Below are positions 38,117 to 56,561 of a DNA stretch of 64,000 nucleotides, piece by piece (the stretch's first letter is position 1; the number at the start of each line of letters is the position of its first letter). The stretch is from Oligoflexia bacterium (GTDB lineage: Bacteria; Bdellovibrionota; Bdellovibrionia; JABDDW01). The notes under the pieces are model-generated. The model did no database searches and was not told the DNA's origin. It was given only the letters and a program-made list of their open reading frames with translations. The position numbers were made by a program, and so were the translations under genes. The stretch spans positions 62,001-126,000 of the forward strand of contig JAWXAT010000036.1 of NCBI GenBank assembly GCA_034439615.1. The letters are read 5' to 3'.

Positions 38117-39979
38117 ATGCAAACAGACAAATTGGTTACCGAAAACCGAGAAACAAAAGACAGTAAAATATTCAAACGCGGTGATGAGATACTCAATCGT
38201 ATCTTTCCAAAAAGGGAAATCAAAAAAACACTCCTCATTACCCCACCAGACGCAAGCAAAGAACTCTTTCGTATGGAAACCGCAAGAAGGCTGCGTTACA
38301 CAAATTACCCTCCTTACGGATTAGCTGTCTTAGCAACCCAACTTGAAAAAGTGGGTGTAACCGTCGAAATACTTAACCTCAATCATACCGTGATCAAAGC
38401 CGCCACTGAAACTAATGATCCAGAAAAATTTGATTTTGACGCTGTCTGGAAAGAAGCACTCGTTAAAAAACTCAAAGAATTTAATCCAGATATGGTTGGT
38501 ATCACATGCATGTTCACTATGACTCACACCTCTCTAAAGCGAGTTTGTGAACTCATAAGCACCCATAAAGTGCCAATTGGTATTGGCGGTGTTCATGTGA
38601 GTAATGATGTTGAGCGTGTACTCAAAGATATTTCCTCTGCTGATATTGCGTTTCTTAAAGAAGGCGACAACAGCCTTAAGAATTTTATTCAAGTGGTGAA
38701 TAAAAAATCACCGGTCAATATTCTCGGCCAAACAATACTTCGCGAGGGCGATGAGTATGTTCGTTTTTTAAACGATCTTCGTCCTAATTCAGAAGATCTT
38801 AATGTTTTGCCTAGCCATGACCTCATCACAGATCTTTCCAATTATTCAAATCATGGCACCGTCGGTGCTTTTTATTGGCTCAGACCCAAGGGAACAAAAT
38901 TTGCCACAGCACTTTCTAATCGCGGCTGTCGCGCTCGTTGCACTTTTTGTAGCGTGAGAAACTTCAATGGTACCGGTGTTAGACTAAGATCAGCCCGCGT
39001 TGTTGTTGATGAACTTGAGCATTTACGTGATGTTCACGGCATCACTCACGTTATGTGGCTCGATGACGACTTGTTGAATGACAAAGAATCCGCAATGGAA
39101 CTCTTTAATGAAATGGTGAGACGTAAACTCAATATGACTTGGGACGCCACCAATGGCCTCATTGCATTTTCGTGCACTGAAGAGATGATTTCCGCAGCAG
39201 AAGCTTCAGGTTGTGTGGCTGTAAATATCGGAATGGAATCGGGCAATGCAAAAATACTTCATGAAGTTAGAAAACCAGGTAAAGTAGAAACCTTTCTTAA
39301 AGCCGCAGAAGTTCTTCGAAGACATCCAAAAATTTACGCCAGTGTTTTATTGATGGTTGGTTTCCCAGGTGAAACTTTAAATATGGTTTTTGACACCATT
39401 AAAGTAGCTAAAGAAATGGATTTAGATTGGTACAGAATCAGCCCACTTCAGCCACTTCCAAATACCCCCATATACGATTCCATGGTAGCTCAAGGATTAT
39501 TACAAGATATGGATACTGCAAAAACAGTATTCCAAGGTGGTGCATACGGTCGTCAAATTGCAATTGAAGCAGGCATAAGTCTTTCAACTCCGAATTTCGA
39601 AGAGGCTTTTAAAGAAATCAAACCCGATCAAATTCCCAACAGTGAACAAATCACGGATATTTGGTTTTATATGAACTACCATCTTAATTTTCACAGACTT
39701 TTTCATGAAGATCGCCCTATAAAAATTAAACAACAAATGGCCAATCTTCAAAACTTGACTGATGTTATTGCACCTGAAAATGGATTTGCTTTATACTTCC
39801 TTGCGGTTCTTCAACAGCGCACCCAAGGTTTTATCGAAGCAGGGCTTGAAGAACGTTTGCAACGAAGACTCAATACATCAGATTACTGGCGTGATCGTCT
39901 CAATGCGTTTGGATTAAGTACTAATGATTTCAACTCGCCAACTTTTGGAAGAGCAAGCAATCCTGTATCTGGGTTATGA
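38117..39979 (+). CDS. B12-binding-domain radical SAM enzyme
   Basis: A 620-aa protein. Residues about 35-200 look like a cobalamin-binding (Rossmann-type) domain: TLLITPPDA, YPPYGLAVLATQLE, PDMVGITCMF and IGIGGVHVS. Residues about 260-480 hold the radical SAM core with C-x3-C-x2-C in NRGCRARCTFCSV, MWLDDDLLN, NIGMESGN and VLLMVGFPGET. I do not see the D-x-H-x-x-G cobalamin histidine clearly, so the cofactor may be base-off or lost. Class B family members do methyl transfer to unreactive carbons, ring contraction, epimerisation and similar reactions. A C-methylation or epimerisation of a glycan sugar is a fair guess. ATGA overlaps the oxygenase gene. Confidence 0.8.
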   Translation: MQTDKLVTENRETKDSKIFKRGDEILNRIFPKREIKKTLLITPPDASKELFRMETARRLRYTNYPPYGLAVLATQLEKVGVTVEILNLNHTVIKAATETNDPEKFDFDAVWKEALVKKLKEFNPDMVGITCMFTMTHTSLKRVCELISTHKVPIGIGGVHVSNDVERVLKDISSADIAFLKEGDNSLKNFIQVVNKKSPVNILGQTILREGDEYVRFLNDLRPNSEDLNVLPSHDLITDLSNYSNHGTVGAFYWLRPKGTKFATALSNRGCRARCTFCSVRNFNGTGVRLRSARVVVDELEHLRDVHGITHVMWLDDDLLNDKESAMELFNEMVRRKLNMTWDATNGLIAFSCTEEMISAAEASGCVAVNIGMESGNAKILHEVRKPGKVETFLKAAEVLRRHPKIYASVLLMVGFPGETLNMVFDTIKVAKEMDLDWYRISPLQPLPNTPIYDSMVAQGLLQDMDTAKTVFQGGAYGRQIAIEAGISLSTPNFEEAFKEIKPDQIPNSEQITDIWFYMNYHLNFHRLFHEDRPIKIKQQMANLQNLTDVIAPENGFALYFLAVLQQRTQGFIEAGLEERLQRRLNTSDYWRDRLNAFGLSTNDFNSPTFGRASNPVSGL

Positions 39980-40932: not shown

Positions 40933-40956
40933 CAAACTAGATTGTCGGTTTGTTAG
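40929..40956. terminator. Bidirectional stem-loop between convergent genes
   Basis: CTAACAAAC (40929-40937) and GTTTGTTAG (40948-40956) form a perfect 9-bp stem around a 10-nt loop. It contains the TAA of the plus-strand oxygenase gene and the TAG of the minus-strand methyltransferase gene. The stem is AT-rich and lacks a long T-run, so terminator strength is uncertain, but position and symmetry fit a shared terminator. Confidence 0.5.
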
Positions 40957-43267
40957 AAAGACCTAGATCATGATAAAAATCTTGTTTGCGTTGGAAAATC
41001 AGAGATAATTCTGAAGGTGCGCTAAAAAAAGCAGTGTCCCCAGTAGTTTTTGATATCTCACAATATAAATATTTGGCTTGAAGATGTCGCAAATAGGGTT
41101 TGATGGTGAGACTTGTTTTAAAGCATTCAGCGGCCTTTTGATATCGATGTGCACCAAAATAAATATTCCCGATAAAATCTGAATGAAGAAAAGCACCAGG
41201 TCGAAGACTCAGTGATTTTGTGAGCATTTTATCCGCGAAGTCATCAAGACGCGCATCTTGCAAAAGTTTTCCTGCCCTAGCCATGGTGTAATAATCTATG
41301 GGGCTCTTTGTGATGGCATCATTGATAAAACCAAGAGCCTCATCTTTTCGTGAGACTTCAAGCAACAGGTTGCCGTAAGTCAGCAATGCCTGATAGTTGT
41401 CGGATTTAGGTGCGCACAATTCTATAAACTCGTTAATTAAAGTTTTTCTAAATTCATCAGCATCCGGCTTTGAAGATGATGTTCTGGCAATGCTTAAAAG
41501 TAAAGCGGCACATGAATCAGGTGAAATCGTAAAAAGTTTTTTGCAAAGACTTACTACGAGATCAAACTCACCTGCTCGAACCGCAGTTTTTGCCAATGAA
41601 TTACAGCGTGTTAAATCTGCATCGCAGTTTTTCTCAAGATCTTGAAATATCTTTTTTGCATTCAAAGAATTTCCAATGAGAGCTGTGATTTCAGCGCGTT
41701 TAAGCTTAAGAAAATAATCTTCATTGCTCGCATTTTCTGTTTTGCTTAAAACCACTTCTGTTTCTTTGGCAAAATTAAATCGAGATAATAAATAAGCAAA
41801 TCGTGTCAACCAAGTGGGGCTTGATGAGTCTTTCATACACTTCATCAAAAGATCACGCCCAGATTCTTTGTTGTGTAGAACCATTTGAATGGCCGAAATA
41901 TAGGCCGTCCAGTATTCAGACTCATGCAAGTTACTTAAATGCAAAGTGTGCTTTTCACAAATCGATTGTAATTGCTGAGTAATTTTATCGGCTGAAAAAT
42001 TCTGCTCATTCTCTGCTTTCAATTTCATCAGCTGGAGCATTTCATTTTGAACATGCCAAACAGCCTCAACATTGCGTTGGGTGAAACTCTTCTCACTCAG
42101 AGACTTAGCTTTTGTCTGACCATATATTTCAACAAATGGCTTTGTTGTGAAAAAAATGGATTTGTTTAAATTTTCAATAAACTCAAGTGGTACCGAAAGG
42201 CCATGTTTTACAAGGATCCCCTGAATCTGATTAAAGGCTTGGTCTGGTGAAAATCGTCGAGGTAAACCACTCAGTTCATTCACAAGCTCAGGTGAATTTG
42301 AAATAAATCCTGAAAGAAAACCATTCCACAATACGCGAAGAACAAGACGGCGCGTTTCAGGATTCTCTTTTTCACGAGTTCTAAAAAAAATAAATCTAGC
42401 TTGTTCAGATTCAGAGCAACTCTCAATCTGGTAGGCAATTTCAGCCGAGTTGATCGTCCAAAACCCGTCTAAGGTACATTCTGTGGGCTCAATGAGTGGT
42501 GATGATGTGTGTCCAAAGTGATTTTCAAAATAAAAGAATCCATCGTCTGAAATATTTTTTTCAATATATCGAATGTATCCCGCAACAATGTCTCGATCCA
42601 TTTCTTGCATTGAATCAATATTGATGGCCACATCAAACTTAAAAGGCTGACTTTCAAGTACATAGGCATTAATAAAATTAATTCCGCCTTTGAAAAACTC
42701 TACATTATCTTCACCGGCCTTGTGAGAAGTTTTTGCTGCGGGAAAGTTGGCTCTGAGGGACCATTCTTGGAATGAAAGAGTTTCTGGAATATCGACGATA
42801 TAGAGAGTGATCTTATCATTAAAATAATTACGAAGTAAGGTAACAACACCACCTAGGCCTCCACCAATTTCCATGACTGTGGGTTCAGAAATATTTTTTG
42901 CTTCAATAGCGGTAATAATCTTTGCCGCATACAAAACGTGATGGATAAATCCGCTGCTGTAAACTTGACCAAAAAGCTTAATGTCTTTACGCGGAGAGCC
43001 AAAATCACTCTCCCCATAACTCAACAATTTTTTAACAATCGGATCACTTGCATCAAGAACTGTACGATCAATCAAGTAATGATTATCATCAACCCACGTA
43101 TTCACCTTACTTTCAGGTGAAAGCATTTCAAGCATTGGAGTAAAAGAAAAATTTGTTTCCCAATGCTTAAGGGTTTGGGCCCAGGTATCTGAAAGGTTGG
43201 AATTGCTTGTATTGCAATTTTTGTAATGCCCTACGATTTCTTGATGCAGATCACGTAAATTGGTCAT
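40937..43267 (-). CDS. Putative sugar O-methyltransferase (NanM-type) with C-terminal TPR-like region
   Basis: A 776-aa protein. The N-terminal part (to about 330) has VMEIGGGLGGVVTLLRNYF and YIVDIPETLSFQEW, then a second half with INIDSMQEMD. The EIGGG...D.PE pattern is what I recall for the putative sugar O-methyltransferase family TIGR04371. The rest (about 400-776) consists of helical repeats, with paired helices such as AALLLSIARTS, EALGFINDAITKSPIDYY and KAAECFKTSLTIKPY, that look like TPR units. The TPR part may bind the glycan-assembly machinery. The gene sits 36 nt downstream of the phosphoramidate operon and may belong to it. Confidence 0.7.
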   Translation of the reverse strand: MTNLRDLHQEIVGHYKNCNTSNSNLSDTWAQTLKHWETNFSFTPMLEMLSPESKVNTWVDDNHYLIDRTVLDASDPIVKKLLSYGESDFGSPRKDIKLFGQVYSSGFIHHVLYAAKIITAIEAKNISEPTVMEIGGGLGGVVTLLRNYFNDKITLYIVDIPETLSFQEWSLRANFPAAKTSHKAGEDNVEFFKGGINFINAYVLESQPFKFDVAINIDSMQEMDRDIVAGYIRYIEKNISDDGFFYFENHFGHTSSPLIEPTECTLDGFWTINSAEIAYQIESCSESEQARFIFFRTREKENPETRRLVLRVLWNGFLSGFISNSPELVNELSGLPRRFSPDQAFNQIQGILVKHGLSVPLEFIENLNKSIFFTTKPFVEIYGQTKAKSLSEKSFTQRNVEAVWHVQNEMLQLMKLKAENEQNFSADKITQQLQSICEKHTLHLSNLHESEYWTAYISAIQMVLHNKESGRDLLMKCMKDSSSPTWLTRFAYLLSRFNFAKETEVVLSKTENASNEDYFLKLKRAEITALIGNSLNAKKIFQDLEKNCDADLTRCNSLAKTAVRAGEFDLVVSLCKKLFTISPDSCAALLLSIARTSSSKPDADEFRKTLINEFIELCAPKSDNYQALLTYGNLLLEVSRKDEALGFINDAITKSPIDYYTMARAGKLLQDARLDDFADKMLTKSLSLRPGAFLHSDFIGNIYFGAHRYQKAAECFKTSLTIKPYLRHLQAKYLYCEISKTTGDTAFFSAPSELSLIFQRKQDFYHDLGLSNKPTI

Positions 43268-43303: not shown

Positions 43304-44569
43304 TTAGGACTTAAATTCAGGTGATGTCAAGGATCTGACAAAAATTCTTGCCCCCTTCCAGAACTTACGTTCAAGCTCAGCCAGGTAGCCTTCACTGCAG
43401 TCGATGGGGTAACCCACCAAATAGAGATAACTAAAAATATAGCGGGCTAAAATATTATTAATGATAAATGGAAGACGGAGTAAACCACCCTTTCGTAGTG
43501 CCTCAAGTTCCAATTTGCTAGGCTTTAAAATGAGAAGTGGAAGGAGCAGGCGCGTCTTGCGGGAGACTTTCCCATATCCATGTTTTTCAACAAATTTCTT
43601 CAATAAGCCATTTAGTACAAGAGTATCAATGGTATCAAAATTGTCCTGCCAATCTTCATACTTTGTATGTTGCACTGAAAAACCATTGATAGCATTTCTT
43701 GCTGAGGTATCAGCCCAGAATGCCAGGCCATTGAAGGTACTTTCCAGTAAGCTATCATTCCACGCTATATTTAAAAAACTAGCCACCCGCTCCATTTCGC
43801 GGCGGGGATTTTCGTGTAACTGCTCCAATTGCACCTCTAGAAAAGGAGCATGTGGATACTTTCTTTGAACAGTGGTCCATCCAACTAATTGATGCTTATA
43901 ATGTGTACGATAATCAGTGTTTAAAACCGACATGTAGGCTTCACGTAGACGGGCATCGCTGCTGTTTTTACTAGCCATAGTCCTTGCTGCCCTAATGTGA
44001 GAATTAAATCCTCGCAGTGGATGGCGCAACATACCCAGTGACAACATATCTGGGAAGTCAGCAAACACATTGCCAATTCGAGTCAAATCATTTGAAGAGT
44101 GCAAATGATAGAGTAAGACTTTTTTTGTGCTGATGTCTTCGCCTCGCGCTAAAGCGTATGCAAAATGTGCTGCGATGAAAAAATATTTTCGAGGAGAATT
44201 CTGATCAGAAATACCCTGCAATATTTCATGCATGTATTTTTTGAAAAGCGCTTGATCAACACTAAGACAAGTATTTTTATTAGGACCTAAATTTTCAAAA
44301 CCACAATTGTTAATATCTTGTTTGCCATCAAAACTAGCAATATTCAAACGAATGAAAGCATCTAGGCGCTGCTCAAGACTGTTATATTTATTTATTTCTT
44401 CCCATTGCTCATGATGAAAACTCATAAGCATAAGAGAGGGTAAGTTTAGAACTTCAGGATGAGAATCTAACAAACTATGCATCAGTAAGGTTCCTGAGCG
44501 TCCCCAGAAATAAAGAGCTACAACCTTGATTTTAGACATGGCTTCTATGGTAGGAATTGTAGATTTCAT
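43304..44569 (-). CDS. Sulfotransferase-fold protein; possible phosphoramidate transferase
   Basis: A 421-aa protein with an N-terminal 5'-phosphate-binding loop ALYFWGRSGTLLMHSLL (G-R-S-G-T) and a later MLRHPLRGFNSHIRA, matching the 3'-phosphate-binding block of PAPS-dependent sulfotransferases. It is the last gene of a six-gene chain in which each start overlaps the previous stop by 4 nt. A sulfotransferase binds a 3'-phosphonucleotide donor. The pathway encoded upstream is expected to produce 3'-phospho-CDP-amidate, so I infer that it may transfer a phosphoramidate rather than a sulfate. No ATP sulfurylase (CysD/CysN) is visible in the window. Confidence 0.7.
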   Translation of the reverse strand: MKSTIPTIEAMSKIKVVALYFWGRSGTLLMHSLLDSHPEVLNLPSLMLMSFHHEQWEEINKYNSLEQRLDAFIRLNIASFDGKQDINNCGFENLGPNKNTCLSVDQALFKKYMHEILQGISDQNSPRKYFFIAAHFAYALARGEDISTKKVLLYHLHSSNDLTRIGNVFADFPDMLSLGMLRHPLRGFNSHIRAARTMASKNSSDARLREAYMSVLNTDYRTHYKHQLVGWTTVQRKYPHAPFLEVQLEQLHENPRREMERVASFLNIAWNDSLLESTFNGLAFWADTSARNAINGFSVQHTKYEDWQDNFDTIDTLVLNGLLKKFVEKHGYGKVSRKTRLLLPLLILKPSKLELEALRKGGLLRLPFIINNILARYIFSYLYLVGYPIDCSEGYLAELERKFWKGARIFVRSLTSPEFKS

Positions 44570-45378
44570 TTCTCATCCCTTAGCTGTAATAAAGCTTTAA
44601 ATTGATGACTGAAATTTTCTATCATAGCGAGGGTACCGGCACAAGCTCCGCATTTAATACGGGGTTTCGGCTGATTAAATGCATTCGCAGCACCATCAAA
44701 ACGAGAATAAAACTTATTAGAAAACCCAAGTAATGCCACACCGCCACAGATATCCCACTCAGACTTAGGCTCAACTGAAAAGTAAAAATCATCTTGCTCA
44801 GCTGCCACTCTTAAAAGTTTATAAGCCACACTTCCCAATGGTTTTATCTGAGGTAACTGCTCTCTAAATACATCGATTTGTCCTTTAGAAAACTCAGTGC
44901 GACTTACAGAAATTTCAGCTTGGACTAAAGAAGTTTGAACAATACGAGATTTAGATCCCCAATACTCAACACCATTATCAAGACTACCAACTCCACCTTC
45001 ACCGGTGGCGGGGTTCACAACGCCCCCTAAAATCGGCAACCCCTTACTAACGAGCCCTACTGAGATTGCAATTTCAGGAATGCCAGAAATAAATTCTTTA
45101 GTGCCATCGATGGGGTCTACGACCCACACATAAGATTTTGTAAGTCTATCGGTGTTGTCTTTATCTTCTTCTGAGAGCCAACCAGAATCGGGTAAAAGTT
45201 TAGTTAGTTCTAGTTTAAGAAATTTATTAACTTCAAGCTCAACTTTGGTAACAGAAGTTCCATCTTGTTTTTTGGTAGTGCCGAGTTCTTCAGAAGACTT
45301 ATTTAAATGCCCCTTAATAATTTCAGATGCTTTGAGCAGTATATTTTTAAAGTTTGTGAGATTAACAGGAACCTTCAT
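44566..45378 (-). CDS. cysQ: CysQ-like 3'-phosphonucleotide phosphatase
   Basis: A 270-aa inositol-monophosphatase-family protein. Landmarks are WLSEEDKDN for the first metal site, WVVDPIDGTKEFISG for the central one and SEWDICGGVALLGF for the third. These are CysQ/3'(2'),5'-bisphosphate nucleotidase features. CysQ normally removes the 3'-phosphate from PAP after sulfation. Between a cytidine-diphosphoramidate-kinase-like gene and a sulfotransferase-fold gene, it may instead hydrolyse 3',5'-bisphosphocytidine released by phosphoramidate transfer (inference). Both ends overlap the neighbouring genes by 4 nt (ATGA). Confidence 0.8.
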   Translation of the reverse strand: MKVPVNLTNFKNILLKASEIIKGHLNKSSEELGTTKKQDGTSVTKVELEVNKFLKLELTKLLPDSGWLSEEDKDNTDRLTKSYVWVVDPIDGTKEFISGIPEIAISVGLVSKGLPILGGVVNPATGEGGVGSLDNGVEYWGSKSRIVQTSLVQAEISVSRTEFSKGQIDVFREQLPQIKPLGSVAYKLLRVAAEQDDFYFSVEPKSEWDICGGVALLGFSNKFYSRFDGAANAFNQPKPRIKCGACAGTLAMIENFSHQFKALLQLRDEK

Positions 45379-45917
45379 CGAAAATCAGGAGCCAATCGAA
45401 TGATCCGATCAACTATTTCTTCAAAAGAGTTTGGAGCTTGAGAGGTATCTAAAACTAGATCTGGGGTTTTGGGCGCATCAAAGGGAAGATCCACACCGAT
45501 GACGTCTTTCATCGCCCCTGATTTAACACCACTGTAAAGTTTTTTTGTGTCACGCATCTCAAGAACACTCATAGGTGTATCAAGATAAACTTCATAATAA
45601 TTGGATATGTTTTTTCTATTCCACTCATGAATCTCTTGAAACAAAGACATCGTTGCACAAACTACTGGTACACCCTGCCCCGAGAGCCATTTACAAAGTT
45701 TAGATATTTGCTGAGCGTTTTTTTTTCGATCTTCTAAACCATGACCAAGATGTGAATTTAAAACGTCACGTACCTCGTCTCCGTCAATCAAAATAGATGC
45801 ATGATTTTGGCTACGTAAACGAGCACAAACTTTATTGGCAATAGTAGATTTACCCGAACCTGAAAGACCCGTGATCCAAAAAACTGGGCCCGCTGCTTTC
45901 ACACCCATTGAATTCAT
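45375..45917 (-). CDS. CysC-like kinase, probable cytidine diphosphoramidate kinase (Cj1415-like)
   Basis: A 180-aa P-loop kinase with GLSGSGKSTIANKV, LIDGDEVRDVL and RDTKKLYSG, the plan of adenylylsulfate (APS) kinase. Two APS-contact blocks differ from the usual enzyme: the E-N-I-R-R helix reads KNAQQ, and the F-I-S-P-F-R segment reads TMSLFQE. This suggests a substrate other than APS. In Campylobacter jejuni, Cj1415 has the same annotation but phosphorylates CDP-amidate at the 3'-hydroxyl. The gene order with the three upstream genes is the same as in that pathway. Overlaps with the neighbours are 4 nt at each end. A true APS kinase cannot be excluded by eye. Confidence 0.8.
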   Translation of the reverse strand: MNSMGVKAAGPVFWITGLSGSGKSTIANKVCARLRSQNHASILIDGDEVRDVLNSHLGHGLEDRKKNAQQISKLCKWLSGQGVPVVCATMSLFQEIHEWNRKNISNYYEVYLDTPMSVLEMRDTKKLYSGVKSGAMKDVIGVDLPFDAPKTPDLVLDTSQAPNSFEEIVDRIIRLAPDFR

Positions 45918-46708
45918 GGTGTGTTCCTATTGATAGTCAGAGTGTTTCCTGAGGTGAGTGCAAATTTCTGGGCTAATTCTAAATCGCGATGGGAATCTAT
46001 TTCTAACCATTTTTCATTGATGGGTACTGCGTGAATATCAGTGCCTGAATTAATCAGCCCTTGTAAAAAATCTGTCATGTACAACATATCAAAATTTCTT
46101 TTTGTTGAAATAAGTGTGCGACCATCTTGGTGGGCCTTGCGCTCTTTTTCAAAAAGATCTTTGGCAAGTTGAACACTTTTACCCTTAAATGAAAGTAGGC
46201 CAATGTATTGGGCTTGAATGCGCTCAAGGGAAGTTTCTTTATTTCCAATATCTGTAATTCTACCATCGTCAGCCAGGCGAAGGCTTTCGGCATCATCTAA
46301 AACATTATCCACGCGTTTTTCCCAATAGCTTTTCCACTCTCGATCAACAACCACTGAAATATCATGGGGAGATTTTAAAAGTGCTTCTAAAACCGAAGGT
46401 TCATAGACGATATCGCCATAGCTTACGATAAAAGAATCTCCGAAATACTCAGCCGCACACCAAAGAGTTTGAAGCATATTGGTCTCAGCAAATCTTTTAT
46501 TTTCAACAAAAGTGAGTTCTTCACCTTGAACTGTTTCTTTACAAAATCCCCTGACAACTACAATATTTTTAACACCAGCAGCCCGCGCAGTATTGGTTTG
46601 CCAATAAAGAAGTGGTTTTCCTTCTAAAGGAACCATACATTTAGGGCGATCAGCAGTGATGGGTTTTAAACGATTACCAGTTCCGGCGGCTAAAATAATC
46701 ATGTTCAT
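45914..46708 (-). CDS. Nucleotidyltransferase, probable CTP:phosphoglutamine cytidylyltransferase (Cj1416-like)
   Basis: A 264-aa GT-A-type nucleotidyltransferase with IILAAGTGNRLKPITADRPK for the nucleotide and catalytic Arg/Lys, YGDIVYEPSVL for the metal-binding Asp, and EIDSHRDLELA near the C-terminus. It resembles LicC-like and sugar-phosphate nucleotidyltransferases. In the C. jejuni phosphoramidate pathway Cj1416 has this fold and couples L-glutamine phosphate with CTP. The neighbours here are the same as in that pathway, so I assign the same role with moderate confidence. The gene overlaps its upstream and downstream neighbours by 4 nt. Confidence 0.8.
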   Translation of the reverse strand: MNMIILAAGTGNRLKPITADRPKCMVPLEGKPLLYWQTNTARAAGVKNIVVVRGFCKETVQGEELTFVENKRFAETNMLQTLWCAAEYFGDSFIVSYGDIVYEPSVLEALLKSPHDISVVVDREWKSYWEKRVDNVLDDAESLRLADDGRITDIGNKETSLERIQAQYIGLLSFKGKSVQLAKDLFEKERKAHQDGRTLISTKRNFDMLYMTDFLQGLINSGTDIHAVPINEKWLEIDSHRDLELAQKFALTSGNTLTINRNTP

Positions 46709-47367
46709 TTGAGAACTCCCTGACCCAGCTTAAGCCAATCAATTAACATGGCTTTGTCTTGCCCAGCTGAAGGACCTTTTCTTTCGGGATGCCATTGAAC
46801 CCCATAAATTGGAAATTTAGAATGATACGCCCCTTCAACGATTCCTTCGGGACTTTTAGCAAACGCAATAAGTTCTGAGGCCAATTCTTTTTCAGTCAAA
46901 CCTTGATCGTGATAGGAGTTCACTTGAAATTCATCTAGCTTAAACACTTTTGAAGCCTTGTGATCGACGATACGTACTAGATGATTGGCCCCGGTATGTT
47001 TTTCATCAGGACTCTGGGCCTTGATGCTTTTAATTAATGAACCCCCAAAATAAACATTTAAAAACTGCAACCCGCGACAAATACCCACAACAGGCAAGTT
47101 TTTTTTAATAGCGTACTCCACCATGGCCCGCTCTGTTTGGTCACGCACAGGATCCGCTCCCACGTCATTCCCATTGGAGAGAATCACACCACTTATTCCA
47201 GTGGCATCCATAAGTTCTGCAGGCGTATTTATGCCATTAGGAATAAAAATTGGAAGCACATTTAAATCAGAAAGTAATTCTACCCAATCACGACTGATAG
47301 CGTCTCGCACTTCGGAGTATGCTTCTGTGGTAACACTTCTAAGTGAAATGGCGATACGTGGTTTCAT
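46705..47367 (-). CDS. Class I amidotransferase, probable gamma-glutamyl-CDP-amidate hydrolase (Cj1417-like)
   Basis: A protein of about 220 aa with SNGNDVGADP, the nucleophile elbow VVGICRGLQFLN, whose cysteine is the nucleophile, and YGVQWHPERKG for the catalytic His and Glu. This is the C26 gamma-glutamyl hydrolase/PuuD-like branch. Stand-alone C26 proteins cleave gamma-glutamyl bonds, and Cj1417 removes glutamate from gamma-glutamyl-CDP-amidate, leaving CDP-amidate. The start is ATG 47367, overlapping the upstream glutamine-kinase-like stop as ATGA; an open frame up to 47397 has no support. The position between the kinase and the cytidylyltransferase supports the assignment. Confidence 0.8.
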   Translation of the reverse strand: MKPRIAISLRSVTTEAYSEVRDAISRDWVELLSDLNVLPIFIPNGINTPAELMDATGISGVILSNGNDVGADPVRDQTERAMVEYAIKKNLPVVGICRGLQFLNVYFGGSLIKSIKAQSPDEKHTGANHLVRIVDHKASKVFKLDEFQVNSYHDQGLTEKELASELIAFAKSPEGIVEGAYHSKFPIYGVQWHPERKGPSAGQDKAMLIDWLKLGQGVLK

Positions 47368-50357
47368 TTTAATATCCGAATTTGACGTTTGCCACAATCC
47401 AGCTCCATGAGTTCATGCTTTGCCAGCTTATCAAAGAGCATTTCTCCACAACCAATGGCAGCTGGAAGTCCGAATTCTGCAGCACGTATAGCCATATGTG
47501 ATGCAACTCCACCGTATTTTGTAATGATCCCAGCGATGGGGTAGCTAAAAATCCAATCGTAACCGGGATCCGCTCGCTCAAGCAAAATGATCTTGTCATT
47601 TAAATTTGAAGTCTGTGAATTTTTATCTAATTTTAAGCAGTCAGCCACAACACGCTTATGGGTAATAAAATTAGGTTGGCATTTCATTTGGCTGAAAAAA
47701 TCAAAATCAGAAACATCAGAAATAAGCGGCGGCAGATGAAGTGCTTTTGTTAATTCAAAACGTTTACGCGTAAAACCAATGGCTCTTTGCAACTCAATTG
47801 ATGTGGCAGATGATGTTCCGTTGGTTGCCATTTGAATCAAAGTCTCAATAGATACAAAAGCCATATCATCCCGAGAAAGCTGAAACTTCTGGCCGAGTTT
47901 TTCAGTTAACATCAAAATAAGATTTAAATTCTTAGTAAATTCAAATTTTGAACTTTCACGCGCTGGTATAGCTTCCAAAATAAATTTCATCAGCGTCATA
48001 ACATCAACATTCAAACCCAAATCTTTAAGAACCTTATCAATCTGACTGAATTTAGATTCGAAAATCTGACGAGCCTTATTGATATCAGGCTTGTGCGTTG
48101 AAGCGCGAGGTGTACCTGAACTACGAATATAAAGTGGAAGTGCTTGGCCCATGTTTTCAGAAAGTATGTCGTAGGTATCAGGTCTGAGATGGGCATAGCG
48201 ACTTACAAATGCCGCTTCAGCAATCTGACCAGCGGCTAGCAATTCAAAATCCTCAGACATCTGACTAGCTACAGTTGAAATATTCCTAAGAATTTCATCA
48301 TACTCTTCATCGCTAAGAATTTTTGCAGACACAAAAGATTTAAGAAATGCAAGGGCCACAAATGCATAACGAGCCAAAATAGAGAAAGGCAATGTGCCCC
48401 AATTAATGCAATCTTCAGAAAGCACACGCAAAGCTATTGCTATGGCATGGGGATTATCTGGCAGTTGAGATGAGATTTGTTCACGTCTTAAATTCAATTT
48501 TTCAAGAAGCTGCATCTGACTGGCAATACTTACTTCTTTTTCTTGGATAATAGATTGAGTTAATAACTTTAATTTTTCTTCTAGGTTTTTAATTTCAGCA
48601 TCTGAAAATTTCGCAGCACTTAAGAGTTCTTTTGTATTTTTGAAATCTTGAGTGAGACATGTGGGTACAATATGAAACTCTATTTTATCATGAAGTTCAG
48701 GATTTTCTTTTAAGCGCCCGATGTAATGATTCACTAATTTTTCTGAAAGTGATGATTCTAAATTCTGAGGTAAAAAAGAATTTACACTTGCACGTACGTC
48801 AATATAGGGCCGCCCAAGAAGCGCAACAAGTAGCGGAGCACTCGTCACATCTTTGTAACCGATCAAAGCCCGAGCTTTTGCCCAGGTGCTATCGGTAATA
48901 AGTCTTTGATACAGCGAAAGTGCTAAGGGCTTTGGGCAAGTACCGATAATTTCAGCAGGATTCCAATCAGGCATAATACCTAAAACAGTGGTTGTACCTG
49001 ACACTGCTGGATTAGGCTTAAACAATTGCGCAGAATAATCACGAATCAACGCTAACTCTTGTGCAAAGTCATCATCGGTGAGCGCAAAACGATTGCGATC
49101 TACAGTCAAAGGCCTCACCTGAAGAATGTAGACTTTTTCATCTCGATCAATTGCAAACTCAATATCGAGGGCATCGTGATCAATAAGTGATTCAAGTTCT
49201 CGAGCTGCAGCGATCAACATATGCATGTGCTTATCAGGATAAGGACCTTTACTTTGTTTTGACACAACCCACGTTTCTGCGTTTTCAGAACCTGAGGTGA
49301 TTGTATCTGTTCTTGAAGTGGTAGTATCGCAATTGATAACAAGGTAAGGTGCGTTGGTTTCTAAATCACGGGTGAGTATGACTCCACTGTTTGTAACATT
49401 GAGAACTTGTGGTTGAACAAAAATCTGATGTTCAAGATCGTCCTTTGGAAAACTATTAAACACTTCAGTTATCGCATCAGAAATTTGCGAAGACTCTTGA
49501 ATATCCACATTTAATATACTTTTAAAGCGCCCTGCTTGAGAACCACTCCACGCATCTTCACTCAAGGCACTGCTGCGTACAACTACAAGACCCTCATTAA
49601 AAGTTTTTTTAACGCTTGCTACAACTTCTTGAGGATTTTTCTTCCACTCAGACACTGCAAATCTAAATTGATCTAGAATTTTTGAGAAGCGAACGACAGG
49701 TTGTAATCTTTGAAGTGTTTGTGCTTTAGTACCAAGAATAAGTTTTGCTGCGTTTTTTGGTTTAGAAAGTGAAGCAAATTTAGAGCTGATATCTACAGAA
49801 CTTAACCCTGCACCCTCTCTTGAAAGCACAGAAAAACATTTTACAAGATCATCTGTTTCATTTTTACTTCCGCTAGTTGCACGCTCACGAAAAAATTTTT
49901 GTAAAAGCTCTGAACCTTTCGCACTAACCAGTGCAACACCAGCAAAAGGAGTCTCAGAATTTACAGGCCCATCAACACCCAATACAAAGTCAGACTTACT
50001 GTCATGCATTTGCTTTGATAATAAATCCAGGGCTTCACGATGAAAGACAATGTCAGCAGAGCAAATATAACATGAATCGGTAAGCTCCTTGATGGCACAA
50101 CCCAAAGCATCGACATCTGAACCTGTCATCCAATCAGCGTAAAAATGGTATTTAAGATCGGGGTAATTCTCGATGACCTTTTCAATATGATAACCGCCGA
50201 CGTAGCAAACTTGTGACACCTGCAATTGTTGAAATGACTGAAGAATCCAGTCCAGTGCGCGTCTGGAGCCTTCAAATTCACTGAGATGATATGGGTAACT
50301 TTTATTTGGGTCGAGGCGTCGAACACCTCTGGAACTTCCTAGGATAATAGCTTTCAT
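47364..50357 (-). CDS. PEP-synthase-like ATP-grasp protein, probable L-glutamine kinase (Cj1418-like), with N-terminal nucleotidyltransferase-like domain
   Basis: A predicted 997-aa protein. Residues about 1-210 form a GT-A-like nucleotidyltransferase domain, beginning MKAIILGSSRGVRR and containing FAGVALVSAKG. Residues about 225-425 are a PPDK/PEP-synthase ATP-grasp domain with VVVRSSALSEDAWSGSQAGR and LDIEFAIDRDEKVYILQVRP. The long middle region has no named motif. The C-terminus carries the swivelling phosphohistidine domain, GGVASHMAIRAAEFGLPAAI, with the catalytic His at about residue 954. Cj1418 has the ATP-grasp and phosphohistidine parts and makes L-glutamine phosphate. It is first in the six-gene chain. 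The start is set at ATG 50357 because the domain begins there. Confidence 0.8.
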   Translation of the reverse strand: MKAIILGSSRGVRRLDPNKSYPYHLSEFEGSRRALDWILQSFQQLQVSQVCYVGGYHIEKVIENYPDLKYHFYADWMTGSDVDALGCAIKELTDSCYICSADIVFHREALDLLSKQMHDSKSDFVLGVDGPVNSETPFAGVALVSAKGSELLQKFFRERATSGSKNETDDLVKCFSVLSREGAGLSSVDISSKFASLSKPKNAAKLILGTKAQTLQRLQPVVRFSKILDQFRFAVSEWKKNPQEVVASVKKTFNEGLVVVRSSALSEDAWSGSQAGRFKSILNVDIQESSQISDAITEVFNSFPKDDLEHQIFVQPQVLNVTNSGVILTRDLETNAPYLVINCDTTTSRTDTITSGSENAETWVVSKQSKGPYPDKHMHMLIAAARELESLIDHDALDIEFAIDRDEKVYILQVRPLTVDRNRFALTDDDFAQELALIRDYSAQLFKPNPAVSGTTTVLGIMPDWNPAEIIGTCPKPLALSLYQRLITDSTWAKARALIGYKDVTSAPLLVALLGRPYIDVRASVNSFLPQNLESSLSEKLVNHYIGRLKENPELHDKIEFHIVPTCLTQDFKNTKELLSAAKFSDAEIKNLEEKLKLLTQSIIQEKEVSIASQMQLLEKLNLRREQISSQLPDNPHAIAIALRVLSEDCINWGTLPFSILARYAFVALAFLKSFVSAKILSDEEYDEILRNISTVASQMSEDFELLAAGQIAEAAFVSRYAHLRPDTYDILSENMGQALPLYIRSSGTPRASTHKPDINKARQIFESKFSQIDKVLKDLGLNVDVMTLMKFILEAIPARESSKFEFTKNLNLILMLTEKLGQKFQLSRDDMAFVSIETLIQMATNGTSSATSIELQRAIGFTRKRFELTKALHLPPLISDVSDFDFFSQMKCQPNFITHKRVVADCLKLDKNSQTSNLNDKIILLERADPGYDWIFSYPIAGIITKYGGVASHMAIRAAEFGLPAAIGCGEMLFDKLAKHELMELDCGKRQIRILK

Positions 50358-50461: not shown

Positions 50462-51211
50462 ATGAAAACAACCTGGGATTATTCTGATTTAGCCAATGCC
50501 TATTTAATGCGTCCGGATTACTCCGATTCAGCCATTGATGACATGCTTAAAATTGCAGGCATTCAAAAAGGCGCTAAGGTCTGTGATGTTGGCGCTGGTG
50601 TAGCTCATCTCACCTTGAAACTTGCAGTTCGTGGCCTTGATGTCACAGCAGTCGAACCTAACGATGCCATGAGAGCAAACGGTATTAAAAGAACCGCAGA
50701 TTTTCCTAAAGTACGTTGGTTTGAAGGAACTGGTGAGCAATCAGGTCAACCCGCTAACACTTATGAGATGGTAACTTTCGGTTCTTCTTTCAACGTGACT
50801 GATCGCACGGCTGCTTTAAAAGAAAGCATTCGAATCCTTAAGCCAAACGGTTGGTTTGCCTGTATGTGGAATCACCGTGATTTAAAAGATCCTATTCAAT
50901 CTAAAATTGAATCCATTATTAAATCAGTCATCTCAGATTATGATTACGGCACACGTCGCGCTGATCAAACTGATTTTTTAAATGAGAGCGGCATGCTGAG
51001 AGAATTGCATAAAGTTGAAGGTCGCGTACTACACACACAATCTGTAGAAGATTGCCTAGAAGCTTGGCGCTCTCACGCAACATTACACCGTCAAGCGGGT
51101 CCTAAATTTAAGCTCATCATTGAAAAAATCAGTGAAGCCCTTGACCAAACAAAACTCTCAAAAATTCAAATTCCCTACACAACCAATATCTGGGTTGCTC
51201 AAGTAAAATAA
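50462..51211 (+). CDS. Class I SAM-dependent methyltransferase next to the phosphoramidate operon
   Basis: A 249-aa methyltransferase with VCDVGAGVAHLTLKLA for SAM, VTAVEPNDAMR for motif II, TFGSSFNVTDR for motif IV and a C-terminal TTNIWVAQVK strand. It is divergently transcribed from the glutamine-kinase-like gene, 104 nt away. In C. jejuni, two methyltransferase genes lie next to the phosphoramidate operon and methylate the phosphoramidate to MeOPN; this gene is the natural candidate for that role (inference). A copy of its last codons (encoding TNIWVAQVR and stop) survives at 56572-56601. Confidence 0.75.
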   Translation: MKTTWDYSDLANAYLMRPDYSDSAIDDMLKIAGIQKGAKVCDVGAGVAHLTLKLAVRGLDVTAVEPNDAMRANGIKRTADFPKVRWFEGTGEQSGQPANTYEMVTFGSSFNVTDRTAALKESIRILKPNGWFACMWNHRDLKDPIQSKIESIIKSVISDYDYGTRRADQTDFLNESGMLRELHKVEGRVLHTQSVEDCLEAWRSHATLHRQAGPKFKLIIEKISEALDQTKLSKIQIPYTTNIWVAQVK

Positions 51212-52707: not shown

Positions 52708-53577
52708 TTGAATATTTTTGAACTTTCCAATAATCTTTTGTCAAAACTCAATGATTTAAAAGTCAATTCACCATCGCTGCATCTTGTTTTAGGTTCATCA
52801 TTTTCTGACATCTTTTCTGAACAAAGTTTTAAGGCCCAGTGGGAAGAAAAAGCTCAAATTACATTTAGCGAAGCGGGGTTTAAAGGCTCAACAGCACCTG
52901 GACACCGTGGGGTTTTTCACTATCTGCAAAATAAAAAAACCAAGAGTACTATTACTTGTCAGGTAGGAAGGCTCCATGGATATGAAGGCACCACTCCTCA
53001 AGACGCTATCGCACCTGTACTTGCCCATCGGCTTTTGGGTACAAAAAAATTTATACTTACAAATGCTGCCGGTGCATTAACAAAAAAATTTAAAGTGGGA
53101 TCTCTCATGATCATCAAAGATCATGTCAATCTCACAGGATTAAATCCGTTAGTTGGTGCAAATCCTGTGAATTCAGAAGGTATGCATTTGGGCCAGAGGT
53201 TTCCAGACATGAGTCAGGCCTATGACCTTGAGCTTTCAAATAAATTAGAAAATTATTTTAAAAAATCAGATCTTCAGGTGAATCACGGGGTGTATCTTGG
53301 ACTTCTAGGACCAAGCTTTGAAACACCAGCCGAAATAAAACTTTTTTCACAATGGGGCTTACACGCAGTGGGAATGTCCACTGTTTGGGAGACCATTGCT
53401 CTTCGTCATGGAGGAGCCCGAGTTGCCGGAGTTTCACTGATCAGCAATTTGGGTTGTGGTTTAAGTGATGAACCTTTGAATCACGATGAGATTTTAAAAA
53501 TATGCAAAACACCAACCCAGAAAATGCTTCAGTGTCTTTTAAATTTTGCTGAAAATGAAGGAGCAAGTGATGAGTGA
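52708..53577 (+). CDS. Purine nucleoside phosphorylase, probably acting on methylthioinosine or related nucleosides
   Basis: A 289-aa protein of the trimeric PNP family: CQVGRLHGYEG, LTNAAGAL, GPSFETPAEI (Glu205) and SLISNLGCGLS with Asn247. The Glu/Asn pair is that of 6-oxopurine phosphorylases, whereas MTA phosphorylases have a different pair there. Next to an MTA/SAH deaminase gene this suggests that MTA is first deaminated to methylthioinosine and then phosphorolysed to methylthioribose 1-phosphate, as in Pseudomonas aeruginosa. The start is TTG 52708, with AGGGA before it. The stop lies within the deaminase start region (8-nt overlap). It is the first gene of the four-gene salvage operon. 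Confidence 0.8.
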   Translation: MNIFELSNNLLSKLNDLKVNSPSLHLVLGSSFSDIFSEQSFKAQWEEKAQITFSEAGFKGSTAPGHRGVFHYLQNKKTKSTITCQVGRLHGYEGTTPQDAIAPVLAHRLLGTKKFILTNAAGALTKKFKVGSLMIIKDHVNLTGLNPLVGANPVNSEGMHLGQRFPDMSQAYDLELSNKLENYFKKSDLQVNHGVYLGLLGPSFETPAEIKLFSQWGLHAVGMSTVWETIALRHGGARVAGVSLISNLGCGLSDEPLNHDEILKICKTPTQKMLQCLLNFAENEGASDE

Positions 53578-54892
53578 GTTCAGTCTAGGAATTCATTGTG
53601 ACTACCTTCTGACGATGAGCGGTGGCTCGGGTAAAGTTTTGCATGACCAGTTTATTGGAGTGAATGGAAGTCGCATCGCTACCATTGCTCCTTGGGGTGA
53701 AAACAATTGGAAATGTGACAAACTCATTAAGGCTAAAAATAAAATCGTTATGCCTGGCCTTATTAATGGGCACACGCATTTATGCATGTCACTATTTCGA
53801 GGCCTTGCCGACGATCTTCCCTTTCATCAGTGGCTACATGAATATATTTTGCCACTTGAAGCAAAACTCGTTGATGCTAAGTTTGTACGTGTCGGTACTC
53901 AATTGGCAGCTCTTGAATGTATTCAAAATGGCGTCACCACTGTGTGTGATATGTATTTTTTCGCTCAAGAAGTGGCAACGGTTTTAGATGAAGCAGGGCT
54001 TCGTGGATTAGTTTGCGAGGCTATTACTGATTTTCCGACTCCAGATAATAAAAACTTAGATGATAGTCACTTTAAAATATTACAGCAAATGTGCGACAAA
54101 TATAAAAATCACGAGAGGATTCAACCTTGTGTTGGCCCCCACGCTCCCTACACGTGTAGCGATGATACAATTAAAAAATCAAAAGAATTTGCGCTTAAAC
54201 ATCAAATTCCTATTGTGATGCATGTATCTGAAACTCAAAATGAAGTTAATGAATCATTAAAAAAATATTCAAAAACTCCTGTGAAAAGACTTTTTGATCT
54301 CGGCCTTTTAACGAATAAAACTATTTTTGCACATTGTGTTTGCATCACTGACGAAGATATTGATCTTTTGCAAAAAACAGGGACTAGCGCAATTTATAAT
54401 CCAGAATCAAATATGAAGTTGGGTTCAGGAGTTGCTCCGGTTCCTAAAATGCTCAAAGCTGGGATTAAAGTAGGCATTGGAACAGACGGCGCTGCTAGTA
54501 ATAACGATTTAAGTATTCTCAGTGAAATGGATGTTGGGGCAAAACTACAAAAGCTCTCTCATCTAGACAACACCGCTCTGACAGGAATTGATACTTTGAG
54601 AATGGCTACAATTGGCGGAGCTGAAGCTTTAGGCATTTCAAAAAATGTCGGAAGCTTAGAGGTCGGCAAGTTTGCAGATATCATCTGCCTTGATTTAGAC
54701 TCATCACATATGCGTCCACTTCACGATGTTGTTAGTCAAATTGTCTATACCGCATCAGCTGCAGATGTGGAAACAGTGATCTGTCATGGATCAGTTTTGA
54801 TGGAAAATCGAGAAATCAAAACTCTTGATCGTGAGAAAATTTTTAAAGAAGTGGATGAATACTATCAAATCATTAAAGCGAGTTTGAAGTGA
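53570..54892 (+). CDS. mtaD: 5'-methylthioadenosine/S-adenosylhomocysteine deaminase
   Basis: A protein of about 440 aa of the amidohydrolase fold. Metal and active-site residues are in GHTHLCMSLFRGLADD, VGPHAPYTCS, MHVSETQNEVNE and GIGTDGAASNN. The LFRGLADDLP..WL segment is typical of MTA/SAH deaminases, which remove the 6-amino group from MTA, SAH and often 5'-deoxyadenosine. The start is ATG 53570, with GGAG 6 nt before; an earlier ATG at 53546 is in frame but unsupported. GTGA overlap couples it to the class II aldolase. Acting on MTA, SAH or 5'-deoxyadenosine, it would clear by-products of the methyltransferases and radical SAM enzyme in this locus (inference). Confidence 0.88.
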   Translation: MSEFSLGIHCDYLLTMSGGSGKVLHDQFIGVNGSRIATIAPWGENNWKCDKLIKAKNKIVMPGLINGHTHLCMSLFRGLADDLPFHQWLHEYILPLEAKLVDAKFVRVGTQLAALECIQNGVTTVCDMYFFAQEVATVLDEAGLRGLVCEAITDFPTPDNKNLDDSHFKILQQMCDKYKNHERIQPCVGPHAPYTCSDDTIKKSKEFALKHQIPIVMHVSETQNEVNESLKKYSKTPVKRLFDLGLLTNKTIFAHCVCITDEDIDLLQKTGTSAIYNPESNMKLGSGVAPVPKMLKAGIKVGIGTDGAASNNDLSILSEMDVGAKLQKLSHLDNTALTGIDTLRMATIGGAEALGISKNVGSLEVGKFADIICLDLDSSHMRPLHDVVSQIVYTASAADVETVICHGSVLMENREIKTLDREKIFKEVDEYYQIIKASLK

Positions 54893-55539
54893 TTGAACAT
54901 AACATTGCGCAAAAAATTGTCGAGGTTTGCCAAAGGCTTCATGCCAAAAACATGTTAGCTGCTGCTGATGGAAATGTCAGTTACCGGGTCAATGATGAAC
55001 AGATTTACATAACACCCACAGGAATCAACAAAGCTTTTATGAAGATTTCTGATATCGCAGTGATTGATATACGAAATCGCGTCTTAAGTGGCAAACCATC
55101 AGGTGAGCGCTTGATGCATCTTGAAGTTTTCAAGCAATGCCCCAAAGCCAAATGTGTTGTTCACGCTCACCCACCCCATGCAATTGCGTGGAGCGTGGCA
55201 CATCCACAATTACAAGAATTGCCTTCGGAATGTTTGTCTGAGGTTATTTTAGCCGTCGGTAAAATTCCATTTGTCACTTATGCAAGACCAGGTACTCAAG
55301 AGATGGGGGAAAACTTAAAACCCTTTTTACCACAATACCGCACAATGATCTTGGCGCGCCATGGGGCTTTGAGTTGGGGTGAGAGTATTAATGAGGCGTA
55401 TAATGGAATGGAACGCCTTGAGCATTCAGCACAAATTCTACAAATTGCACATACTCTGGGTGGTCTTACTAATTTATCGCAAGAAGAAGTTCAAGCCCTC
55501 AAAGAAATGCGCAGACAAATTGGAGAAAAAACTTTGTGA
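54889..55539 (+). CDS. Class II aldolase/adducin-family protein (methylthioribulose-1-phosphate aldolase or dehydratase type)
   Basis: A 216-aa protein with GNVSYRVNDEQIYITPTG for the phosphate/zinc region, SGERLMHLEV (Glu), VVHAHPPHAIA with the His-x-His zinc ligands and LARHGALSWGES. The family contains L-fuculose-phosphate aldolase, MtnB (methylthioribulose-1-phosphate dehydratase) and the 5-methylthioribulose-1-phosphate aldolase of the DHAP shunt. As the neighbour is MtnA and no MtnC/MtnD/MtnK-type gene is visible, the aldolase reaction producing DHAP and an aldehyde is the more economical reading (inference). The start GTG 54889 overlaps the deaminase stop as GTGA. Confidence 0.75.
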   Translation: MIEHNIAQKIVEVCQRLHAKNMLAAADGNVSYRVNDEQIYITPTGINKAFMKISDIAVIDIRNRVLSGKPSGERLMHLEVFKQCPKAKCVVHAHPPHAIAWSVAHPQLQELPSECLSEVILAVGKIPFVTYARPGTQEMGENLKPFLPQYRTMILARHGALSWGESINEAYNGMERLEHSAQILQIAHTLGGLTNLSQEEVQALKEMRRQIGEKTL

Positions 55540-56561
55540 AAAATCTCATATCCATGGGATTAAAAGTTGAAGCAGGTCGTGTCTTCGTACTCGATCAAGA
55601 AATACTTCCTCAAAATGAAATCTGGCTTGAATGTAAAACGCCAAATGACATGATCAATTTTATTAAGTCCCTTAAAATTAGAGGGGCTCCCCTCATCGGG
55701 GTTGGAGCCGCAATTGCATTAGCTCAATATGCAGAAAAATTAAAAACATCAAAAAAAAATTCAGATAATATGATTCAAATGATCCTTACGGCGGCTCACC
55801 AACTGCGAGATGCACGACCCACGGCTGTGAATCTTATGGCAGCCGTTGATCGCGTTATTTTAAAACAGCCACTTAATGCCTTAACTGTTGGGAACATCGT
55901 TAGATCAGCTGAAGATCTGTTTGACGAGGATGTAGCACTTTGTGAAGCAATGGCTGTTAACGGGGCAAATGTAATTGAAGATGGTGACAATATTCTCACT
56001 CATTGTAACACGGGTGGATTAGCCACAGCAGGTATTGGGACAGCACTTGGAGTTATAGCTCGTAGTTTTAAAAATGGAAAAATAATCCATGTGTATGTCG
56101 ATGAAACCCGCCCACTCCTTCAAGGCGCAAGGTTAACAACCTGGGAACTTCAAAAACTCAAAATCCCCTTCACATTGATATGCGATAATATGGCCGCCAT
56201 GTTGATGAAGCAGGATAAAGTTCAAAAAATCATCGTGGGTTCAGATCGTATTGCTAGTAATGGTGATTTTGCCAATAAGATTGGCACTTATAGTGTTGCA
56301 GTTAATGCTCATCACCATAAAATTCCATTTTACGTAGCTGCACCCTGGACCACCATTGATTGGTCTTGTTCTTCTGGGAATCATATTCCTATTGAAGAAC
56401 GTCATGCAAAAGAAGTTCGTTATCCTTCAGCACCAGAGGGTTGTGCTGTGTACAATCCTGCATTTGATGTTACCCCCCATGAACTAGTAACGGGGTATAT
56501 TTTAGATCGTGGATTTTTCAAAGATTGGAATCAAGCTAAGTTGTTAAATGATAAATCTTAA
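55536..56561 (+). CDS. mtnA: S-methyl-5-thioribose-1-phosphate isomerase
   Basis: A 341-aa protein of the MtnA/eIF2B-like family: SLKIRGAPLIGVGAA, LTHCNTGGLATAGIGTALG (Cys nucleophile), VDETRPLLQGARLTTWEL and VGSDRIASNGDFANKIGTY (Asp acid). It isomerises methylthioribose 1-phosphate to methylthioribulose 1-phosphate, between the phosphorylase and aldolase steps encoded upstream. The start GTG 55536 overlaps the aldolase stop (GTGA). Its last codons (encoding LLNDKS) lie in a 31-nt imperfect direct repeat whose second copy is at 59158-59189. Confidence 0.9.
   Translation: MKNLISMGLKVEAGRVFVLDQEILPQNEIWLECKTPNDMINFIKSLKIRGAPLIGVGAAIALAQYAEKLKTSKKNSDNMIQMILTAAHQLRDARPTAVNLMAAVDRVILKQPLNALTVGNIVRSAEDLFDEDVALCEAMAVNGANVIEDGDNILTHCNTGGLATAGIGTALGVIARSFKNGKIIHVYVDETRPLLQGARLTTWELQKLKIPFTLICDNMAAMLMKQDKVQKIIVGSDRIASNGDFANKIGTYSVAVNAHHHKIPFYVAAPWTTIDWSCSSGNHIPIEERHAKEVRYPSAPEGCAVYNPAFDVTPHELVTGYILDRGFFKDWNQAKLLNDKS

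Follow-up and report, generated by a model that had tools for sequence, protein, structure and literature searches.

A predicted phosphoramidate operon in an Oligoflexia bacterium

We analyzed a 64,000-nucleotide stretch of an Oligoflexia bacterium genome (GCA_034439615.1, contig JAWXAT010000036.1; hereafter the window) and found a run of genes that very probably forms a unit for the biosynthesis and transfer of phosphoramidate, probably O-methyl phosphoramidate. Six minus-strand genes lie in series, each pair overlapping by 4 bases provided that translation begins at the probable internal ATG codons. They encode an ATP-grasp/phosphohistidine kinase (KIN), a class I amidotransferase (HYD), a LicC-like nucleotidyltransferase (CTase), a CysC-like kinase, a CysQ-like phosphatase and a sulfotransferase-family protein (SULF); a methyltransferase gene (MT) is divergent from KIN. 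Together, they appear to include every gene needed to build a phosphorus-nitrogen group and attach it to surface sugars. Phosphoramidates are considered rare, and to our knowledge their surface-sugar chemistry has been worked out only in Campylobacter. The O-methyl phosphoramidate pathway of C. jejuni comprises cj1415-cj1418, cj1419/cj1420 and the transferases cj1421/cj1422. The products of the first four, Cj1415-Cj1418, convert glutamine, ATP and CTP to CDP-phosphoramidate 3'-phosphate (PMC11800397).

The initial annotation of this DNA had matched four of the genes (KIN, HYD, CTase and CysC-like) to the C. jejuni cluster. These genes and their order were confirmed, with families assigned by profile matches, and the order MT-KIN-HYD-CTase-CysC is identical in a Campylobacterales locus (L135). 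The boundary that had been drawn, 44566-50357, is too tight, as MT (50462-51211) and SULF (44569-43304) belong to the unit; its start marks where a fifth gene, of the CysQ/inositol-phosphatase family (45378-44566), stops, a gene that lies inside the range yet had gone undescribed. The pathway assignment itself is supported by what can be read from the DNA: gene content and order, family scores, the tree and altered base pocket of the CysC-like kinase, the lack of detectable sulfate activation, recurrent co-localization in other genomes and gene fusions. Scans for promoters and terminators yielded fewer sites than shuffled sequence.

In the proposed pathway, 3'-phospho-CDP-amidate would be made from glutamine, ATP and CTP. 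CTase (46708-45914) would couple the product of KIN (50414-47364, likely start 50357) to CTP, HYD (47397-46705, likely start 47367) would strip off glutamate to leave cytidine diphosphoramidate, and the CysC-like kinase (45917-45375) would 3'-phosphorylate the latter, giving 3'-phospho-CDP-amidate, a chemical analog of 3'-phosphoadenosine 5'-phosphosulfate (PAPS). SULF would then move the phosphoramidate onto a glycan hydroxyl, the CysQ-like protein would take the 3'-phosphate off the spent cytidine 3',5'-bisphosphate, and MT would supply the O-methyl group. The predicted steps up to 3'-phospho-CDP-amidate are supported by homology to characterized Campylobacter enzymes. We infer the roles of the transferase, phosphatase, methyltransferase and glycan acceptor, as well as the timing of methylation; the surrounding locus suggests that the phosphoramidate decorates a surface glycan.

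The ATP-grasp protein resembles glutamine kinase rather than PEP synthase

KIN (1016 aa) matched PRK05849/NF004508, the family of Cj1418-type L-glutamine kinases, with 882 bits (cut-off 501), and the alignment covers positions 5-788 of the 789 in the profile. Models of phosphoenolpyruvate (PEP) synthase, whose cut-offs are about 600 and more, gave no more than 60 bits. It contains PPDK_N and PEP-utilizers domains and is closed by the mobile phosphohistidine domain (aa 940-1008); since the protein terminates there, the C-terminal PEP/pyruvate domain of PEP synthases is missing. A placement of KIN with PEP synthases, which the initial annotation had named as a finding that would speak against the pathway, was thus ruled out by PRK05849 membership and domain content. 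Two motifs, D949-P-G-x-D953-W954 and S972-H973-M974, are invariant in 40 aligned sequences. The second holds the predicted phosphohistidine, His973 (codon 47496-47498, minus strand), the invariant His of the PEP-utilizer mobile domain.

The PRK05849 kinase portion (aa 221-1016) is preceded by a degenerate nucleotidyltransferase-like domain (approximately aa 20-215). In a structure model (40 sequences; mean predicted local distance difference test score, pLDDT, 88.9), the top PDB match was rifampin phosphotransferase, and residues 1-215 matched the MobA/LicC/GlmU nucleotidyltransferase fold. A similar N-terminal extension is present in most of 40 long KIN relatives from the genome-contig set. 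As its signature loop is degenerate, we assign no activity to this domain. Full-length alignment to Campylobacterales kinases gave 35-37% identity across ~795 aa, and several of those kinases adjoin a hydrolase that scores above the NCBI gamma-glutamyl-CDP-amidate hydrolase cut-off.

For reference loci, we searched 249 Campylobacterales genomes, and in seven the hydrolase exceeded this cut-off. Their loci read KIN-HYD-CTase, preceded by MT in most of them, and considering the gene order and the published C. jejuni cluster (PMC11800397) these genomes were taken as Campylobacter. The clearest is L135, with the order DUF2972-MT-MT-KIN-HYD-CTase-CysC, in which one MT appears broken; identities of the window proteins to this locus are 37% (KIN), 31% (HYD), 35% (CTase), 40% (CysC-like) and 39% (MT).

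HYD is a Pfam C26 protein (113 bits) whose best NCBIfam match is NF045546, the gamma-glutamyl-CDP-amidate hydrolase family. It adjoins KIN and carries motifs for a Cys-His-Glu triad, namely a GICRG nucleophile elbow and WHPE. CTase, a putative CTP:phosphoglutamine cytidylyltransferase of the Cj1416 type, matches NTP_transf_3, and its best PDB sequence match is LicC (1jyk). It is 35-41% identical to Campylobacterales homologs over ~250 aa, and its PKC motif recurs in 65/74 kinase-linked copies, including all seven of the Campylobacterales copies compared.

The CysC-like kinase lacks the adenine clamp

In M. tuberculosis CysC, Phe492 and Phe576 sandwich the adenine of adenosine 5'-phosphosulfate (APS), an interaction conserved among APS kinases (PMC4373884). 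The CysC-like protein of the window, which has the APS_kinase fold and is a putative CDP-amidate 3'-kinase of the Cj1415 type, has His and Val at these two positions, and neither Phe is kept in any of the 44 CysC-like proteins linked to the KIN family, compared with 12/12 (first position) and 10/12 (second position) in reference APS kinases. In the tree, kinase-linked proteins and true APS kinases likewise fall on opposite sides of a split supported at 100/98, except that a single Cohnella protein joins the APS side. It was also the initial annotation that had pointed to clustering with true APS kinases as a potential contradiction, and both the split and the different base pocket go the other way. 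Identity to the Campylobacterales copies in L135 and L132 is 40-43%. In four relatives (L090, L093, L102 and L103), a CysC-like domain is fused to the N-terminus of the KIN homolog.

This gene is the sole member of the APS-kinase family in the host genome (3.0 Mb, 70 contigs, 96% complete), where we found no match to CysD (TIGR02039) or ATP sulfurylase (PF01747). As no ATP sulfurylase is detectable, APS synthesis looks impossible in this host. On tree, base pocket and genome content, an APS kinase identity was ruled out. A WNR signature was also considered as a marker of the family (27/44 kinase-linked CysC-like proteins, 0/12 APS kinases) and was not used as a criterion because the Campylobacterales copies lack it.

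Candidate transferase, phosphatase and methyltransferase

SULF (421 aa) matches PF13469 (Sulfotransfer_3) above the cut-off with 58 bits, is the sole Sulfotransfer_3 gene in the host genome, and carries the nucleotide-binding motifs GRSGT and RHPLRGFNS. Its closest relative in our set (38% identity over 353 aa) lies in a Campylobacterales cluster with the order SULF-CysC-MT-KIN-HYD-CTase (L142). A fold model of moderate quality (pLDDT 64.9) matches PAP-bound tyrosylprotein sulfotransferases in the PDB. Because there is no sign of PAPS synthesis, SULF is most naturally taken to use a different 3'-phosphonucleotide donor; the predicted operon product, 3'-phospho-CDP-amidate, would be that donor. 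Directly downstream of SULF, a gene at 40937-43267 (minus strand) encodes a protein in which TPR-like repeats are linked to a NanM-like sugar O-methyltransferase domain.

The CysQ-like protein belongs to the inositol monophosphatase family (PF00459, 133 bits) and retains the metal motifs LSEED, DPIDGT and WD. CysQ is its best NCBIfam match (92 bits versus a cut-off of 229), and since this score is below the cut-off, its substrate remains a proposal. In a Sulfuricurvum locus, a CysQ scoring above the cut-off (255 versus 229 bits) lies between HYD and CTase (L095:2978-3727).

MT (249 aa, plus strand) is 58-65% identical, over its full length, to kinase-adjacent methyltransferases of Sphingobacteriaceae, Pseudomonas, Lachnospiraceae, Eubacterium and Nitrospina, spanning Bacteroidota, Bacillota, Pseudomonadota and Nitrospinota, and 37-40% identical to the Campylobacterales MT that immediately precedes the kinase. 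Methyltransferases linked to the kinase fall into two subfamilies, which correspond to the Campylobacterales -1 and -2 positions, and the window MT groups with the -1 (Cj1419-position) type (support 89/88). As the window KIN sits in a different clade from the kinases beside the methyltransferases of 58-65% identity, the association between MT and kinase looks independent. The conserved MT provides a specific candidate for O-methylation, a step to which no enzyme has been assigned, as do SULF and the CysQ-like protein for transfer and recycling.

The kinase family is widespread

Kinase relatives were sought in one genome per species of bacteria and archaea, and at least 556 are encoded. The best 80 of these loci cover many bacterial phyla, haloarchaea and DPANN archaea; because they are the ones closest to the window, counts based on them do not represent a random draw. 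The kinase is also found on plasmids of Vibrio, Azospirillum, Cupriavidus and rhizobia. Within the phylum of the window, it is rare and patchy, occurring in 4/291 genomes, one of which (G058) also has HYD and CTase. The overall distribution points to a surface-glycan trait that has spread horizontally. No kinase relative was found in the viral contigs searched, and the one match in a phage collection is an unverified metagenomic scaffold. The initial annotation had presented the pathway as occurring outside Campylobacter; it is present here, and viewing it as an isolated case understated its distribution.

Neighborhoods were counted in the 83 of 99 kinase loci with at least three genes on each side. 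HYD was a neighbor in 71, CTase in 72, CysC-like in 40, MT in 30, SULF-like in 21 (including at least one doubtful assignment, L137) and CysQ-like in 8. Chance adjacency is rejected on the HYD and CTase counts. The CysC-like gene was present in 24/30 loci with MT versus 16/53 without (Fisher p about 1e-5, uncorrected for shared ancestry). Two other genes recur downstream of the core, a few genes away from it: one is formyltransferase-like (29 loci; for example, L043:15181-15915), and the other, of about 200 aa, has no known function (14 loci; for example, L034:14289-14915). Two loci have the KIN-HYD-CTase core and no CysC-like gene among the listed neighbors: in Vibrio alfacsensis it lies beside a CDP-glycerol glycerophosphotransferase-like gene (L023:10025-15706), and in Allorhizobium beside a CDP-alcohol phosphatidyltransferase (L027:9962-15041). 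This arrangement is possibly a second route of CDP-amidate use.

Two further gene groups in the window were noted. A B12-binding radical SAM protein (38117-39979, plus strand) has the PhpK-type P-methyltransferase family as its best curated match (129 bits, far under the 600-bit cut-off); the gene after it encodes a 318-aa protein that matches no Pfam family. At 52708-56561 (plus strand), four genes resemble methylthioadenosine salvage, as read from their translations (nucleoside phosphorylase, deaminase, class II aldolase and MtnA); mtnA is also near the kinase operon on an Azospirillum plasmid (L025).

Evidence against the assignment and alternative explanations

Several observations weigh against a phosphoramidate pathway in this host. 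HYD scores 98.9 bits against NF045546, below the 250-bit cut-off; the hydrolase from the same gene cluster in another Campylobacterales genome (G060) is likewise under it (181 bits). The CysC-like protein still passes the generic APS-kinase profile (142 bits versus 138.7), and ATP sulfurylase could be absent through assembly gaps, given 96% completeness, which is the chief caveat. The transferase genes of C. jejuni-type loci encode DUF2972 proteins, to which SULF has no significant profile similarity (hhalign probability 1.1%), nor did SULF match DUF2972 in the Pfam scan. Shared ancestry of the two was considered and is undetectable by profile comparison, though an R-D/H-P motif is common to both; a DUF2972 search of the host genome gave no match, but control searches were also silent, so this is not evidence of absence. 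We know of no enzyme of the set that has been assayed outside Campylobacter. The role of MT is weakened by reports that cj1419 and cj1420 knockouts leave the capsule unchanged and that neither gene has an assigned function (PMC11800397). Redundancy of these paralogs would explain the silent knockouts.

The window may instead combine two systems, in which the first three genes make CDP-amidate and the CysC-like, CysQ-like and SULF genes form a standard cassette for PAPS sulfation, adjoining them by chance. The family names and the generic APS-kinase score fit this account, and C. jejuni HS:19 is reported to have a separate cysD-cysN-cysC-sulfotransferase cluster (PMC8743553). We nevertheless consider it very unlikely: with neither CysD nor ATP sulfurylase found in the genome there would be no APS, the CysC-like kinase lacks the adenine clamp, branches apart from APS kinases and has counterparts fused to KIN homologs, and the 4-base overlaps run along the entire gene series. 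The simplest reading of generic annotations, that these are a housekeeping PEP synthase, gamma-glutamyl hydrolase, sugar nucleotidyltransferase and APS kinase adjacent by chance, has a negligible probability, as it is already contradicted by the recurrent adjacency across phyla, and stands against the family-level scores and the lack of APS synthesis.

Two other alternatives keep the pathway architecture and change its chemistry or destination. Considering that KIN is distant from the Campylobacterales kinases (35-37% identity) and has an extra N-terminal nucleotidyltransferase-like domain, it might phosphorylate a different amide, or an amine, in place of the glutamine amide. This is highly improbable, because a hydrolase of the glutamate-releasing type is retained beside the kinase in so many loci (71/83), which is most easily explained by glutamine as the carrier. 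The pathway could also be real and its product not a capsule or lipopolysaccharide (LPS) decoration, with the phosphoramidate ending up in a secreted small molecule or a lipid head group. The Allorhizobium core beside a CDP-alcohol phosphatidyltransferase (L027) and a Cupriavidus plasmid kinase gene away from glycan genes (L026) point this way, and phosphorus-nitrogen natural products exist (PMC6429109). However, glycan genes are densely packed in the window (NeuB-like, aminotransferases, nucleotidyltransferases and sugar epimerases), several relatives' loci are glycan loci too, and we regard a non-glycan product as unlikely. A phosphoramidate unit that would act on a surface glycan is our preferred assignment.

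Broader implications and comparison with known systems

A 2022 review still terms glutamine kinase C. jejuni-specific (PMC9561416), and judging by titles and abstracts, no open-license paper naming the enzyme seems to report it beyond Campylobacter. If the gene set indeed operates in hundreds of species, a common surface chemistry has been hidden under sulfate and pyruvate enzyme names. Phosphoramidate has been reported in the LPS of Xanthomonas and Shewanella (PMC3907429), which this gene set may explain. With slightly more doubt than confidence, we suggest that bacteria and archaea share a general phosphoramidation system parallel to sulfation, in which 3'-phospho-CDP-amidate corresponds to PAPS, sulfotransferase-fold proteins transfer phosphoramidate and CysQ-type enzymes recycle the nucleotide, plus a CysC-less branch that feeds CDP-glycerol-type or CDP-alcohol transferases.

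Compared with the C. jejuni pathway, the window has the four enzyme families in the same order, an MT of the same subfamily beside the kinase, an equally altered base pocket in the CysC-like protein and a CTase with the same PKC motif. It differs in that the four core enzymes are only 28-43% identical, KIN has the extra nucleotidyltransferase-like domain and belongs to another kinase clade, there is a single, divergently transcribed MT, and a sulfotransferase-fold candidate takes the place of DUF2972, alongside a CysQ-like phosphatase. With the rifampin phosphotransferase/PEP synthase superfamily, KIN shares the ATP-grasp and mobile phosphohistidine domains with a substrate domain between them. 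Rifampin phosphotransferase is its best PDB fold, although the overall TM-score is low (0.26-0.38 on the query), and unlike PEP synthase, KIN stays under 61 bits against the models of that enzyme and ends without a PEP/pyruvate domain. PAPS sulfation (CysN/CysD, CysC, sulfotransferase and CysQ) has in common with the proposed pathway a predicted 3'-phosphorylated donor, a sulfotransferase-fold transferase and a 3'-phosphatase. The two differ in that no ATP sulfurylase was detected in the host genome, the window kinase lacks the adenine clamp and occupies a separate branch, and the predicted cargo is a phosphoramidate carried on a cytidine nucleotide.

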